DNA of 48,280 bases from Chitinophagaceae bacterium (GTDB taxonomy: Bacteria > Bacteroidota > Bacteroidia > Chitinophagales > Chitinophagaceae), in assembly GCA_947456805.1 (NCBI GenBank), contig CANGTN010000013.1, positions 1 to 48,280 of the forward strand, given 5' to 3'. The notes beneath the pieces were generated by a model. The model worked only from the letters and a program-made list of their open reading frames with translations, was not told the origin of the DNA and did no database searches. The translations under genes and the position numbers were made by a program. This document shows positions 2,933-10,501 of this stretch, piece by piece (the stretch's first letter is position 1; the number at the start of each line of letters is the position of its first letter).

Positions 2933-5900
2933 TTATCCGTTTTTTATTACAGCAATCTTCAGCAGTGAATCGTTAACTTCAATTTCAGAACTTTCAGAAG
3001 AAAGTTGTGAAACCCAAATTAATCTATCTGCCAAAATTTCGCCGCAAATATAGGTTATATGTTGATTAACAGCATATTTGATATTATCAGATACATTATT
3101 ATCAAGCAACTCCACGAATATACGGTCTGTTAAATTAAAATTGCTTTCTTTTCTAATATTCTGAATTCTGTTAATCAATTCTCTGGCGCTGCCTTCATTT
3201 TGTAGTTCGGGTGTAATAGTGATATCTAATGCAACAGTCAATGACCCTTTTGAGGCTACACTCCAACCCGGAATATCCTCTGCAGAAATCTCTACATCTG
3301 CAATTTCGAGGGTAAAATGAATGTTTTGTAGAGGCAAAACAATTGATCCAACTTGCTCTAATTCAGCTATTTGTGTCTGATTTAAAAGAGAAATTGCCCC
3401 AGCGGCTTCTTTCATGTTTGCACCAAGCTTTGCACCAAGTATTTTGAAATTTGCCTTAACTTTTTTCTTAATGACACCTTCAGTTTCAGTTATATATTCC
3501 AGCTCTTTTACATTCACTTCACTCTTTATTAAATTTTCAACTTTTTCAAGTTGTACCTTCATGTCGGGGTTTAAAACTGGAATCATTACCTTTTGCAATG
3601 GCTGACGAACCTTGATATTCACTTTTTTACGTAGTGATAAAACAAGCGAACAAATATCTTGTGCTAGTTGCATTCTTTCTTCCAATACCAAATCAATTGC
3701 GCTTTCGTTAGCTTTTGGGAAAGCTATATGATGAACAGATGCTGCTTTAAAACGATTGGTTACTAAATTCAAATTTTGAAAAACAGCATCACTAAAGAAT
3801 GGAGAAATTGGTGCAATTAGTCTTACAATGGATTCCAAACATTCATACAATGTTTGATAAGCAGCGATTTTGTCAGCCTCATACTCACCTTTCCAAAATC
3901 TTCTTCTGCATAATCTTACATACCAGTTACTTAAATGTTCGTCCACAAATTCTTCTACAAATCTGCCGGCATTGGTAGGTTCATAATCATCCATTGACTC
4001 AGTTACTTTCTGAATCAAAGTATTTAGGGATGAAAGTATCCAACGATCAATTTCAGGTCGATGTTCTACAGGAATATAATTTTCCTTAAATGCAAATCCA
4101 TCAACATTGCTGTACAAAGCAAAGAATTGATAAGTATTGTACAAAGTTCCAAAAAACTTACGTTGTACTTCCTGAATACCTGCCAGATCAAATTTCAAAT
4201 TATCCCATGGCGATGCGTTGGTAATCAAATACCATCTAGTTGCATCTGCTCCAAATTTATCAATTGTTTCAAAAGGATTGACAACATTACCCAAGCGTTT
4301 GCTCATTTTATTACCATTCTTATCCAATACCAATCCGTTTGAAACCACTGTTTTGTAAGCCCTGCCATCAACTTTATCTGTTGGCAAACCTGCTTTTTCC
4401 AATTCCTCAATAACACTTTCTTTGATTAAACTTCCAATTGCGTGTAAAGTATAAAACCAACCCCTTGTTTGATCTACACCTTCTGCAATAAAATCGGCCG
4501 GATAATTTTGAGCAAAAATTTCTTTGTTTTCAAAAGGGAAATGCCATTGTGCATAAGGCATTGCGCCACTGTCAAACCAAACGTCTACTAAATCGGGAAC
4601 ACGTTTCATCGGCTTACCTGTTGGAGAAGTAAGAATAATATTGTCCACTTGTGGTTTGTGTAAATCGGTAATTTCTTTTACCGGACTATCTGCATGAATC
4701 AATCTATTCAATTCTGAAATACTTCCTATGCAAATTTCTTCGCTTTCATCCGCTGATCGCCATATTGGCAAAGGCGTCCCCCAATATCTACTTCTGCTTA
4801 AATTCCAATCTACCATATTTTCCAACCAATTGCCAAAACGCCCTTCACCTGTTGATTTTGGTTTCCAGTTAATGGTTTTATTCAAATCAACCATCCTATC
4901 TTTTAATGCAGTCGTTTTAATAAACCATGCATCTAACGGATAGTATAAAATAGGTTTATCTGTTCTCCAGCAATGGGGATAATTGTGTTCGTATTTTTCT
5001 ACTTTAAATGCTCTGTTTTCTTTTTTTAATTTTACGCAGATATCAACATTCACATCAACATAATCTTTTTCGTCTTTATAGTTTTTTACATAGCGACCAC
5101 TGAATTCTCCCAAGCCATCTACAAACTTTCCTTCTCTGTCTACCATGGTTAAAATACCAATACCATATTTCTTTCCGACCTTAAAGTCATCTGCACCAAA
5201 TGCAGGTGCGGTATGCACAATACCAGTTCCATCTTCTGTTGTAACAAAATCACCGCAGATGACACGAAATGAATCACCGTTCGTTTCTTGATTGGCTTCA
5301 TAAGGAAGTAATTGTTCGTAACGACATTCTTCAATTTTTGCACCTTTAAATGTTGCAATTATTATCCAGGGAAGTTTTTTGCCTTCGGCTGAATAATTTT
5401 CAAAATCTCCATTCTCTTCTTCTGCCTTGAAATACTTGTGCAGCAAGGCTTTTGCAAGTACAACATTAATGGGCAAATGTGTATATGGATTAAATGTTTT
5501 TACCAAAACATATTCAATATTTGGTCCTACAGTAAGTCCCAAATTTGATGGCAATGTCCATGGTGTGGTTGTCCATGCCATAAAAAATACTTCCTCGTTA
5601 TTTGCAGCCTCCAATAAAAATTGAGATTTTTCATTTTTTACTGCTTTAAACATTGCAACAGCACTCGTATCTTTTACATCTTTATACGTACCCGGTTGGT
5701 TTAATTCATGAGAACTTAAACCAGTACCGGCAGCAGGAGAATAAGGTTGAATGCTCACACTTTCGTACAACAATTCTTTGGTATACAATTGTTTTAAAAT
5801 CCACCACAGACTTTCAATATAATTATTTTCGAAAGTGATATAAGGACTTTCCAAATCTACCCAATAACCCATTTTTTTAGTGATGCTGTCCCATTCGTTT

Positions 5901-6628: not shown

Positions 6629-7195
6629 TTAAAAGGTAGTTGTGCCATTGGCTTGATAAGCATATCTGAATTTGTATAACAATGTAGTTGGATACATTCC
6701 TACAAACGCTGCATAATCAACCGACAACAATTCCATTTTGGCATAATGTGCGCCATCGGCAGTTTTGAACAAAAATACCTTGCCTGCTTTTGGTGCAAAT
6801 GTTCTGGTTGCTCCATTATAATCATACCAACTTCCGTCTTTAATAGCTCGTTTTGTTGTAGTAGTGTCATACGCATATCCTGTGGTTGGTGCGGTTGGTG
6901 TTGCATCAAAAGTTCCGTTGTTTAAAATTACTCCTGCATTTCCTGGACCGCCTGCATAACTATTCACAATAAATGTAGTAAAACGAAGACCAAAATCCCA
7001 CTTGTTAGTAGCAGAATCAGTATTTGCAACAACTGTTGAATCACTGAAACGAAATAATGTAAATGCACTTGCTTGACTAAAAGGAACACTTATGGTTTTA
7101 GTGCCCGAAATAACGGTAATAGGTGTTTCACTATCTTTTGTGCAAGATGCAAAAGCTACGATGCCTACTAAACTGAATAAAATAAAACGCTTCAT
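6629..7195 (-). CDS. HmuY-family haem-binding lipoprotein
   Basis: This is a 188-residue exported lipoprotein. MKRFILFSLVGIVAFASC is a signal peptide with a lipobox ending in Cys18, so it should be anchored to a membrane, probably the outer one. The body matches the HmuY family, including the WDFGLRFTTFIVNS segment and the GPGNAGV loop that follows. HmuY proteins capture haem and pass it to a TonB-dependent receptor. The gene starts 16 bases after the receptor stop, supporting a receptor plus haemophore pair. The mature part has a single His (in GAHYAK) and two Met, so the two-His haem ligation of P. gingivalis HmuY cannot apply. The start at 7195 was chosen because the longer frame to 7291 overlaps the receptor gene and would bury the signal peptide. 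Confidence 0.85.
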   Translation of the reverse strand: MKRFILFSLVGIVAFASCTKDSETPITVISGTKTISVPFSQASAFTLFRFSDSTVVANTDSATNKWDFGLRFTTFIVNSYAGGPGNAGVILNNGTFDATPTAPTTGYAYDTTTTKRAIKDGSWYDYNGATRTFAPKAGKVFLFKTADGAHYAKMELLSVDYAAFVGMYPTTLLYKFRYAYQANGTTTF

Positions 7196-7211: not shown

Positions 7212-9353
7212 TTATTGATTAAAACGATTGAATGAGAAATTAAGATTGATGAAAAATATTCTGCCTGCAATATTGGGCAACTGTGCAGCATTGGTATAAT
7301 CCATTAAATTTTCTACCCCAACTTGCAAGCTGATTTTTTGATTGATGTTTTTTGATGCGGCGATATTGGTCATCCAAAACCCGGGCACCAATTCACGTTC
7401 ATCATCGGCAATATTATTTCCGTTGATATCATTGAAACCAAATTTTCCACGATATACAAAACGAACAAATGCACTCCAGCCTTTGGCTTCATTTGTCCAT
7501 AAAATTTTTGCATTGATGGTGTGTTTTGAACGATTGTTGATACCGAAATAATCTGCTTTTTTTACAACCGAAGATTGATACGTAACAGGATCTCTTTTAT
7601 ACATATTTCCTGCTTCAATTCGGCTTAAAATATCTTTATCTTTTGCTTCTAAATATTGGTAACCTGCAGATATTGCAATGGATTTAAACAACTGGTATTT
7701 TACATCAACATCTGCACCTTGTGTAAAAATGCGATTGATGTTTTGGTAGCTGTAAATATTGCTGTTATTGGTTTTTTTGAATGGTAATAAATAAACGTCA
7801 ATCAAATTGCTGATGTCGTTTCTGAAGATGCCTGCTTCAATATTTATTTTTCCTTTGGTGAATTTTGTGCCAAAGTGTGTACCAAAAGATTTTTCGGGCA
7901 TTAAAGATTTTGAAGACAAATAGGAATTGATGTTAGCACCAGCTTGCAATGCTCCCTGTTGTTGCATATTTTGCAATTCATTTGCCAACACACTAGAACC
8001 AATTAATGAATAGCCAATTTGTGCATTGTAAAAACTAAGATACATGTGTCTGAAATCGGGAGCTTTAAAACCCCAACCTGCCGAAGCTGTAATTTTCCAA
8101 AAACGATTGGGCCTGAATGCTGCTGCTATTCGTGGACTTACATTCAAATCAAAATCGGTGCGCTTATCTAATCGAATACCTGCAACAAGGGTTAGTTTAT
8201 CCTGATAAAAACTCCATTCATTTTGTGTAAATGCATAAACAGTTGCTAACCTTTGTTTGCCTGCATATCTTGACGCCTCAATGGTTTCAAAATATGCACC
8301 CACGCCTGCAATATATTTGCTGGTTGAGTTGTGGCTGTGCTCAAATTGAATTTCAGGTTTTAGAATCGTTTGGTTGAAACTTGTTTCGTCAAAACGCACA
8401 TCCTGATTTTCCAAATTAACAAACGATTTGTTCGAATAATTATTAAAAAAAGTTCTGAAATAAATTCTGCTGTTTGCACTACGATTGTAACGCAATTGCG
8501 CAAAAATACTTCTGTCTTTTTCTTCAGTAAATCCTTTCACAACAGCGGGTTGAGATTGCCAGGTAATTTGGTAATCATTGTTTTGTTTCGAATCTACATT
8601 TCTTAAGGAAAGTAAGAATTGTGTTTTGGCAGAAAAATCATGCGTAATTTTTGCATGCATTGTCCAGTCTCTGTATGGGTCAATTGTTTTGCCATAAATA
8701 TTTTTATCCAAATCGTAACCACTGGTTGAATAGCGATTTACAAAAAACTGAATGCCTGTTTTATTGAAACGATTGGCATAAGAAACTGTTTGAGCATTGG
8801 TATTATTGGTAGCTGTATGCAGCTGTACATCTATATTTTGGGCTGTTGGTCTGGCTGTAATAATATTGATAACACCAGCCATTGCTTCGCTGCCGTATAA
8901 ACTTGATGAAGGACCTTTTACAATTTCGATTTGTTGAATATTGCCTGTTGCAATTCGTCCTAATTTTAATATGCCGGCATTTCTTCCTACCAATGGTTCA
9001 CCATCTAATAAAATGGCAGTATAAGCAGGATCTAATCCCAACATTTGAACACCCTGACCAAAAGGATTTGGATAACCTGCTAATGATGTAGCCAAATTAC
9101 TATTCACAATTACAATTCCAGTTTGCTCTTGCAATACATCTTGCAACTTTAATGAACCCGTTTGCTGAATTGATTTTTTATTAACGATGATTGCCGGAAC
9201 AGCAAGGTTGCTGAACTTTCTTTCGCTTCGGGTTGCTGTAATAAATACATCTTCCAATTTACCGGACATGGTATCCTGATTCACCACTTGTGCCAACAAA
9301 CTGTTGTAACAAATAATGAAACTGAAGAGTGTAAAAGAAATTTTTTGCAGCAT
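7212..9353 (-). CDS. TonB-dependent receptor, probable haem/iron type (HmuR-like)
   Basis: This is a 713-residue outer-membrane receptor. It has a signal peptide (MLQKISFTLFSFIICYNSLLAQ), a TonB-box-like stretch before the plug (GKLEDVFITATRSERKFSNLAVPAIIVNK, given here only as a landmark at about residues 31-59), plug motifs GPSSSLYGSEAMAGVINIITARP (about 152-174), and a C-terminal beta-barrel ending in an aromatic-rich strand (FFINLNFSFNRFNQ). Substrate import uses TonB-ExbBD energy. A HmuY-type gene follows after 16 bases and an AraC regulator lies upstream on the same strand, so haem or an iron chelate is the likely substrate. The substrate is an inference from the neighbours; the receptor fold is clear. 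Confidence 0.9.
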   Translation of the reverse strand: MLQKISFTLFSFIICYNSLLAQVVNQDTMSGKLEDVFITATRSERKFSNLAVPAIIVNKKSIQQTGSLKLQDVLQEQTGIVIVNSNLATSLAGYPNPFGQGVQMLGLDPAYTAILLDGEPLVGRNAGILKLGRIATGNIQQIEIVKGPSSSLYGSEAMAGVINIITARPTAQNIDVQLHTATNNTNAQTVSYANRFNKTGIQFFVNRYSTSGYDLDKNIYGKTIDPYRDWTMHAKITHDFSAKTQFLLSLRNVDSKQNNDYQITWQSQPAVVKGFTEEKDRSIFAQLRYNRSANSRIYFRTFFNNYSNKSFVNLENQDVRFDETSFNQTILKPEIQFEHSHNSTSKYIAGVGAYFETIEASRYAGKQRLATVYAFTQNEWSFYQDKLTLVAGIRLDKRTDFDLNVSPRIAAAFRPNRFWKITASAGWGFKAPDFRHMYLSFYNAQIGYSLIGSSVLANELQNMQQQGALQAGANINSYLSSKSLMPEKSFGTHFGTKFTKGKINIEAGIFRNDISNLIDVYLLPFKKTNNSNIYSYQNINRIFTQGADVDVKYQLFKSIAISAGYQYLEAKDKDILSRIEAGNMYKRDPVTYQSSVVKKADYFGINNRSKHTINAKILWTNEAKGWSAFVRFVYRGKFGFNDINGNNIADDERELVPGFWMTNIAASKNINQKISLQVGVENLMDYTNAAQLPNIAGRIFFINLNFSFNRFNQ

Positions 9354-9514
9354 GTTTTTTCTTGTGCTGCAAAAGTGATTGACTACACAGAAAAGATTGC
9401 CATGGAATTGTAAAATAATTGTCTGAAAAAGAGTATGACACTTTCATGACAATTGAAAAATTGTATCAAATTATTCTTAAAAACTAAAGTTGTAAACCAT
9501 GTAAATAAAATATA

Positions 9515-10435
9515 TTACTTCAACAAATCACAAGGTTTTAAACCCGTATGTTTTTTAAATGCTGCAGAGAAATGTGAGATAGAAGAATAACCTAATAAGG
9601 CAGATACATCTGTGACGCTTAAACCTTTTTCGTACAACAAATATTTGGCATGTTCCATTCTTTGTTGTTGGTAAAAATCAAAAATTGTAGTGCCAAAAAT
9701 TTCTTTAAACCCTTTCTTTAAATAGCATTCATTCATTGCTACTTTTCGGCTTAATTCTTTAATTGTAATTGGGTCGCCAATATGTTGCAACAAAATTTCT
9801 TTTGCTTTGTAAATGCCATTTCTACTGTATTCGTCTTCCAAAAATTTACAGCTAAACCCGGTTTCTTTTTCATCTACCAAACAATCCAAACTATACAACA
9901 ATAACTCATGCACTTTTGAATTGATAAAAATATTTTCTAAAGACCCCGAGTAACTATGATTCAATAACGCATCTAAAACATTTCGTTTTTTGTTACAAAC
10001 CGGAAATACTTTGGTAAAAGCATTGGGATGTTTGAATGCAAGCACTTCGTCTTTGCGGTTACTCACTTTTACATTGTGTGTAAACTGATGTAAAAAAGTT
10101 GCTGAAAAGTGAAAAGTAAAAACATCAACGGTGATTTGTTGCCCATTACAATTGGTGGGTTGCTTTTCGCAGAAGCTGCAACTTTTATCGTAACAATATT
10201 TGTTGCCTGTGGTACTATATCTCAATTCTAAATAATTCTCCTGAGGTTTGTTTTCACTATAGTGATAAATCATCATGCCTGCATCATCTGCTACCCATGG
10301 ATGTTGTGCAAAATAGCGGCGAATATGATAATTGATGGAGCCCGGTATTTCTTGTTTTTTTTCAATCAACAAATCCATACTCGGTTCTATACCACCCCGG
10401 TGTGCAACTTTTAATATGTCTAATACTTGCTGCAT
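9515..10435 (-). CDS. AraC-family transcriptional regulator with N-terminal cysteine cluster
   Basis: The protein has 306 residues. The C-terminal ~100 residues form the AraC double helix-turn-helix: ITIKELSRKVAMNECYLKKGFK is the first unit and LSVTDVSALLGYSSISHFSAAFKKHTG the second, the latter with the family signature. The N-terminal part is the PchR-like type found next to siderophore and haem receptors. It contains CYDKSCSFCEKQPTNC, with Cys81, Cys86, Cys89 and Cys96 (C-x4-C-x2-C-x6-C), which looks like a metal or redox site. It lies 161 bases upstream of the receptor on the same strand, which suggests it controls the receptor/HmuY genes. An inverted repeat upstream of its start may be its own operator. 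Confidence 0.9.
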   Translation of the reverse strand: MQQVLDILKVAHRGGIEPSMDLLIEKKQEIPGSINYHIRRYFAQHPWVADDAGMMIYHYSENKPQENYLELRYSTTGNKYCYDKSCSFCEKQPTNCNGQQITVDVFTFHFSATFLHQFTHNVKVSNRKDEVLAFKHPNAFTKVFPVCNKKRNVLDALLNHSYSGSLENIFINSKVHELLLYSLDCLVDEKETGFSCKFLEDEYSRNGIYKAKEILLQHIGDPITIKELSRKVAMNECYLKKGFKEIFGTTIFDFYQQQRMEHAKYLLYEKGLSVTDVSALLGYSSISHFSAAFKKHTGLKPCDLLK

Positions 10436-10451
10436 AATGATGTGTAAAATT

Positions 10452-10501
10452 AATGTACCTACATGTATTTTCCAACTTTTTGTTTTACGTTCAGGTACAT
10501 T
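10452..10501. promoter_or_regulatory. inverted repeat between the AraC gene and pdxA, candidate operator
   Basis: AATGTACCT (10452-10460) and AGGTACATT (10493-10501) are perfect inverted 9-mers whose centres are 41 bases apart, about four helical turns. They sit just upstream of the AraC start and before pdxA. This suits a dimeric regulator, but there is no independent evidence. Confidence 0.35.

Follow-up and report, generated by a model that had tools for sequence, protein, structure and literature searches.

A predicted AraC-type activator of haem supply in Chitinophagaceae with a conserved four-cysteine loop and a putative TKACA-N6-TGACA operator

Our analysis of a 48,280-bp stretch of Chitinophagaceae DNA, hereafter the window, points to an AraC-type activator that would raise haem supply in this family. 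In the mechanism we propose, the two helix-turn-helix (HTH) motifs of the regulator would bind the direct repeat TKACA-N6-TGACA and, positioned immediately before the promoter on one constant face of the helix, the protein would activate transcription of a receptor-HmuY operon (positions 7212-9353 and 6629-7195 of the window), of hemA in other lineages and, in many lineages, of its own gene. A four-cysteine loop between two strands of the sensing half would hold a metal centre, with Fe-S favoured, whose presence or state switches activity. The conservation of this loop, the operator motif, its phasing and the set of genes bearing it are established at the level of sequence, and we judge the explanation as a whole, a haem-supply activator with this operator and a metal-holding Cys4 loop, to be probable. 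The broader proposal of a family-wide master activator of haem uptake and synthesis, one whose Cys4 Fe-S loop reports the iron-sulphur or redox state of the cell, is put forward tentatively and is on balance doubtful. The principal genes and the loop are located as follows.

9515-10435, minus strand: araC gene, encoding an AraC/XylS-family regulator of 306 aa; start ATG at 10435.
10148-10195, minus strand: the Cys81-Cys96 loop, CYDKSCSFCEKQPTNC, between predicted strands 68-79 and 101-110.
7212-9353, minus strand: TonB-dependent receptor, a predicted target (Pfam Plug 3.1e-17, barrel 1.4e-36).
6629-7195, minus strand: HmuY-like lipoprotein of 188 aa, 16 bp after the receptor.

An earlier note on this DNA, which gave no strand, had called the product of 9515-10435 an AraC regulator, and the minus-strand translation bears this out with Pfam matches to HTH_18 (5.3e-21, 75.1 bits) and HTH_AraC (3.8e-14, 52.8 bits) that both exceed their cut-offs. 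The C-terminal double HTH is likewise present in 23/23 rows of our orthologue set A1, and the layout of the protein is that of a beta-rich sensing half followed by a two-HTH DNA-binding half. By sequence, the sensing half has no relative in the PDB at a useful E-value and no convincing family in Pfam, where ExsA_N gave the best match (E 0.0052, in 4/23 rows). An AlphaFold (AF2) model built from 66 sequences places residues 80-100 between two beta strands of the sensing half, 68-79 and 101-110; the best of five models reached a mean pLDDT of 74.8 (the others 56.8-62.7) and a pTM of 0.55, with pLDDT below 50 at residues 83-98, so that the model is weak exactly in the cysteine loop. Foldseek matches at E ≤0.001 were titled AraC-type regulators or their DNA-binding domains (Rns, CsvR, ToxT, SoxS, AraC and others), apart from one titled albicidin resistance protein. 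Single DNA-binding domains from these hits superpose well on the model, whereas the entire chain fits Rns and ToxT poorly (TM ~0.3, rmsd >20).

Homologues were collected from relatives (38/59 genomes at 1e-20, paralogues included), from the order (56/198 genomes) and from a public genome collection (the best 80 of 394 matches used). A phylum search gave matches in 38/296 at 1e-30, and the ten scores of at least 343 bits all fell within Chitinophagaceae, the best outsider scoring 144 bits. Within the family, the regulator was matched at 1e-60 in 228/294 genomes and 72/92 genera, three of the 228 (G560, G611, G748) having a divergent sensing half; 36 low-scoring family members were added deliberately to test the weakest ones. 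Removal of three rows (one fragment and two non-orthologues) and nine duplicates left 167 distinct orthologues for the cysteine count.

The spacing C-x4-C-x2-C-x6-C that the earlier note had read in the sensing half for Cys81, Cys86, Cys89 and Cys96 is exact in the window protein, which has further cysteines at 147, 185, 196, 237 and 302. Free variation of these residues among close homologues, which that note had set as the refuting outcome, is not what we found: a conserved set of four loop cysteines occurs in 158/167 orthologues and a set of three in 2/167, the others having five (1), two (1, which belongs to a different family) or none (5). All four are kept in orthologues down to ~40% identity and in 59/67 members of a set with <80% mutual identity, and C81, C89 and C96 account for three of only five invariant columns before residue 195 in the 23-row set. 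Spacings of 4-2-7 (75), 6-2-7 (47) and 4-2-6 (18; that of the window) are the commonest, and one orthologue (L323) has four loop cysteines at irregular spacing. On this comparative evidence, the four-cysteine pattern is not a matter of chance. Elsewhere in the protein, Cys237 is found in 167, Cys302 in 165, Cys74 in 162 and Cys196 in 161 of the 167 orthologues. Ser74 (codon 10214-10216) occurs in the window protein alone, its nearest relative having cysteine there, and is either a recent change or an assembly error.

Loss of all four cysteines (5 rows) outnumbers single losses (2 rows). The five cluster-less rows require four changes on a quick tree of 69 rows from which the loop columns were excluded (25 of its 66 inner branches open, 17 starred): L040, L052 and L318 are each placed among four-cysteine rows, and L324/L325 form one long branch. 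This joint loss suggests that the four loop cysteines act as one unit. Other AraC-like proteins of the Chitinophagales (L169-L179, L184) carry different cysteine sets (CC near residue 91, CxxC or Cx4C before KFL/RFL, and NxCYLKKGF), and in L178 and L184 TonB receptor genes adjoin the AraC-like genes on the same strand.

From the pattern of conservation we infer that the loop binds a metal. Its most plausible content is an Fe-S centre, a preference that nevertheless falls short of an even chance; zinc is unlikely, haem or some other content rather more so, and thiol redox chemistry the least expected. The rival that survives best makes the four cysteines a structural or redox-labile zinc site, similar to that of Ada, and the true signal a small ligand or an electrophile. 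Loop spacing does vary between lineages, as zinc knuckles can, and a palindrome common to the araC promoter and a MarR-pirin-YceI-FMN reductase locus (described below) hints at electrophile or redox stress, but the whole loop has been lost while the protein was kept, which would be unusual for a purely structural site, and the predicted targets are haem genes. We regard the zinc site as unlikely. No Ada zinc domain was present among the Pfam matches of the window protein or the families listed for the 23 rows.

The evidence for a haem regulon comes from the probable operator, the direct repeat TKACA-N6-TGACA, first noticed upstream of araC genes. Allowing at most one mismatch, it occurs within 250 bp upstream of araC in 70/165 loci (shuffled mean 7.7, maximum 12 over 20 rounds), and as an exact site in 18 loci against 0.4 after shuffling; the spacer peaks at 6 only, other spacers giving 2-17 loci at one mismatch, and 95/165 araC genes have no site within this distance. 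A smaller excess is seen downstream of araC (15/165 against 5.95; exact, 7 against 0.15). Scanning 1,249,266 bp of araC loci gave 37 exact sites with the 6-bp spacer, compared with 4, 3, 2 and 6 at spacers 4, 5, 7 and 8. Of the 37, eighteen lie upstream of araC, nine upstream of receptor genes, five upstream of other genes, four inside genes and one elsewhere, the five at other genes comprising three at two hemA genes, one beside a ferritin-like gene identified by eye and one at an unknown gene. These operator sets, like those used for neighbourhoods, include a few non-orthologues or divergent members (e.g. L031, L325). At L279 an exact operator (2985-3000) lies between a ferritin-like gene, also named by eye, and a gene resembling the DUF6686 protein of L339.

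Receptor genes adjacent to araC carry the site in 17/27 cases (8 exact), against 3/38 control receptors (2 exact; 40 were taken, of which 2 were unusable), with a Fisher p of 3.8e-6 that is overstated, as are our other p-values, because the loci are related by descent; the remaining 10/27 adjacent receptor genes have no site. An exact site is present at 8/8 distinct hemA genes reached (2 plus 6/6), a set that is not a random sample, since the loci were selected for hem genes near araC; the row L339, a truncated duplicate of L393 in which no site falls within range, was not counted. In L391, hemA is accompanied by a divergent ferrochelatase gene and by hemC-, hemD- and hemE-like genes downstream (Pfam). 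The gene divergent from hemA is ferrochelatase-like by eye in L388, L392, L393 and L395 and is not so in L394, where a further exact site precedes a radical-SAM, hemN-like gene. Since genes of uptake and of synthesis are both predicted targets, their joint activation fits a response to haem need better than one to plain iron starvation.

Both sites of a conserved operator pair are present in the window's receptor promoter, upstream of the start codon at 9353.

9436-9451, plus strand: distal, inverted operator TGACACTTTCATGACA, the only exact site in the 48,280-bp window.
9398-9413, minus strand: proximal operator TTACAATTCCATGGCA, with one mismatch to TKACA-N6-TGACA, ending 20 bp before the putative -7 box.
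9370-9377, minus strand: putative -7 box CACTTTTG of the receptor promoter, which matches only the relaxed nAnnTTTG and not TAnnTTTG.

The distal site is also the only intergenic exact site in 1,166,999 bp of the window's genome, where other spacers give 0-3 intergenic sites. Counting all exact sites in this genome, there is no excess (7 at spacer 6 against 2-11 at other spacers), and one-mismatch sites are at background level; an isolated exact site is not rare by itself, and it is the place and pairing of the window site that count. The window's own araC promoter has no operator site, and no hemA, hemB or ferrochelatase gene was found in 1.167 of the 2.397 Mb of its genome. A one-mismatch site in the same genome (L402, 10824-10839) lies 57 bp before a gene that by eye is cytochrome c-like.

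The -7 consensus of Bacteroidota is TAnnTTTG, and the distance from the end of the site to this box is mostly 20, 30-31 or 41-42 bp, steps of a helical turn that keep the site on one face of the DNA. In receptor promoters it is 20 bp in 14 of the 15 listed, the window included, these promoters having been chosen for possessing a site and scored with the relaxed nAnnTTTG. In hemA promoters it is 30-31 bp to a TAnnTTTG box in 8/8, although in one of them (L388) the exact site stands at 42 bp and the site at 31 bp has one mismatch. The araC promoters gave 45 site-box pairs from 42/166 loci, at 41-42 bp (22), 20-22 bp (9), 30-32 bp (7), 53 bp (3) and other distances (4), the phased set for this final count having been picked after the first distances were known. 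Because the steps are those of one helical turn, a bound protein would face the polymerase in the same way each time, which is the pattern of an activator, and the regulator would accordingly be expected to activate rather than repress. The receptor promoters of the window, L053, L056, L310, L311, L312, L331, L335 and L341 have an additional site, in inverted orientation, 38-39 bp upstream of the proximal one; those of L307 and L342 carry a pair of sites that point the same way, those of L054, L055 and L059 the proximal site alone, and those of L330, L332, L333, L334, L336 and L343 are without a proximal site.

That TKACA-N6-TGACA belongs to another regulator, with araC merely one of its targets, would be a surprise, though not a great one. 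In favour of this reading, the tie between the site and the AraC protein is a comparative one only, and 2/38 control receptors also carry it exactly. Against this, it stands at araC itself and at the neighbouring genes; an exact site is found in none of 15 stretches that contain AraC-like paralogues or divergent members, distant Chitinophagales ones included; and AraC proteins typically use direct repeats of 11-bp period at fixed phasing. In one of these 15 stretches, L326, a site with one mismatch precedes the regulator by 229 bp. We infer that the AraC regulator itself binds the predicted operator. The cysteine-less orthologues L040 and L318/L327 retain the operator at their own genes, so the loop is not needed for operator retention and seems to tune, rather than make, DNA binding. 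An 18.5-kb stretch (L390) around the cysteine-less L318 gene contains neither an exact site nor hemA.

A different element is found in the promoter of araC.

10453-10464, minus strand: palindrome ATGTAGGTACAT in the araC promoter, which resembles the operator of a MarR-pirin locus.

Many araC promoters conserve the motif ATGTNNNTACAT beside the -7 box, and in 8/10 genomes of the genus the form ATGTNNNTACATTAANTTT has a single occurrence, which is at araC; one of the two genomes without it (G003) has no araC match. We had considered the palindrome to be araC's own operator and dropped this idea, as a near match to it borders a MarR-family gene and an operon encoding pirins, YceI and an FMN reductase. 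Among 27 genomes inspected by eye, ATGTNNNTACAT is present at 15 araC promoters, and at both araC and the MarR gene in 13; it is missing or broken at the remaining araC promoters (e.g. L102, L014, L040). The bare palindrome shows no excess in the window's own genome (7 against a control of 10). The palindrome in the araC promoter also resembles that of secreted YceI genes in the genus (loci L214-L225). It is likely, judging from these shared sites, that a MarR-type repressor controls araC, and the palindrome-bearing MarR, pirin, YceI and FMN reductase genes are probably a redox or electrophile regulon.

The MarR-type site at the araC promoter, together with the cysteine-rich sensing half, is what speaks for direct oxidant sensing, in which the cysteines would form disulphides or react with oxidants without a metal, as in RclR and OxyR, where cysteines sense oxidants directly. 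Two-cysteine switches usually need no four cysteines, however, and four cysteines in a short loop, lost jointly, look more like a ligand set, so we think this quite improbable.

The gene neighbourhood also supports a link between the regulator and haem uptake. The earlier note had named its neighbours as a TonB-dependent receptor and a HmuY lipoprotein. The receptor stands (barrel 1.4e-36), its best NCBIfam match being TIGR01785 TonB-hemin at 3.6e-38, below cut-off; the lipoprotein scores 20.2 and 20.8 bits against HmuY (PF14064 20.8), below the curated cut-off of 27, and the proteins at the same position in L331, L341 and L342 score above it. The divergent upstream neighbour of araC is a pdxA-like gene. 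Among 79 loci of close relatives, seven have the receptor of the window's cluster and four the HmuY cluster, an amidohydrolase gene lying in between. In the 97%-identical relative L053, this gene (L053 5951-7579) separates araC and the receptor; it is missing from the window (9354-9514), where the receptor promoter with both operator sites is retained despite its absence.

The wider count covered 166 distinct araC loci, of which 164 had at least 400 bp downstream, with lineages defined at 75% identity; 20 long regions, partly selected for their neighbours, were used for araC genes that the set already contained, being the longest stretch for each. In 27/164 loci and 12/51 lineages, one of the first three downstream genes on the same strand as araC encodes a TonB receptor; a receptor is the first downstream gene in 16/164 loci (11 lineages) and not in 148/164, counts that are lower bounds, as many loci have only 1.5 kb of flank. 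The other first downstream genes are an amidohydrolase (37), a convergent hemL (12), a cytochrome c-like gene (2), unannotated genes (96) or none (1). Plug-domain genes number 24-133 per genome across 22 genomes, three of them with at least 133. The order araC-receptor-HmuY is found in L331, L341 and L342, continues with genes for a FecCD permease and ABC genes in L330 and L343, and becomes araC-receptor-receptor-HmuY in L335; PepSY_TM proteins are encoded near araC in L328, L329 and L334. The close relatives had given us the idea that the receptor adjacency is accidental, which was dropped, the receptor recurring in 12/51 lineages of the wider family. That the regulator instead serves the amidohydrolase or other genes is very improbable, for although an amidohydrolase is the first downstream gene in 37/164 loci against 16 for the receptor, and separates araC from the receptor in the nearest relative, the operator pair precedes the receptor start in both L053 and the window and the receptor-HmuY pair is seen again in distant lineages. 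Support for a role in haem uptake comes from the recurrent araC-receptor gene order and from the shared operator, the latter also found at hemA.

Haem-supply control in Bacteroidota is poorly understood, and the predicted regulator, operator and targets make it testable in cultured species; the regulator could be how Chitinophagaceae match haem supply to need. If the loop is indeed an Fe-S or haem sensor, it would be a way of sensing that is new to a very large family of regulators. We know of no AraC protein with a Cys4 Fe-S loop within its sensing domain, and our literature search, in which subscription journals were mostly outside scope, recognised no paper on this regulator.

Compared with known systems, the regulator shares with AraC/XylS proteins such as Rns, ToxT and AraC a two-HTH half and a beta-rich sensing half. 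Its predicted direct-repeat operator adjoins the promoter, as theirs do near the -35/-33 region of target genes, and the Cys4 loop that separates two of its strands sets it apart from them. The PchR/YbtA type of AraC protein, which governs iron uptake, senses a ferric siderophore; as in those systems, an AraC protein adjoins a TonB receptor gene that it apparently controls, whereas hemA as a predicted target and the Cys4 loop set the window-type regulator apart. SoxR, IscR, RirA and WhiB are Fe-S regulators of iron or redox genes with short-spaced cysteine ligand sets; the window regulator has such a set, with a putative Fe-S centre, in contrast to their other DNA-binding folds and different cysteine spacing. 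Ada is an AraC-family protein that uses a four-cysteine zinc site as a chemical sensor, but the window regulator is without the Ada zinc domain, its spacing and regulon differ, and the Ada structure 1wpk was matched by Foldseek at an E-value of only 0.32. Of the HmuR-HmuY haem uptake operon, the window has a clear receptor followed by a lipoprotein with a sub-cut-off HmuY score. CdhR of Porphyromonas gingivalis is a reported regulator of hmuYR whose mechanism is described as unclear and for which iron binding is reported as not shown (PMC10434189); it resembles the window regulator in its hmuYR-type target, here predicted, and in belonging to the same phylum. Set beside these systems, the AraC fold and the style of operator are known, and the inserted, lineage-specific Cys4 loop and the predicted haem regulon are what is new.
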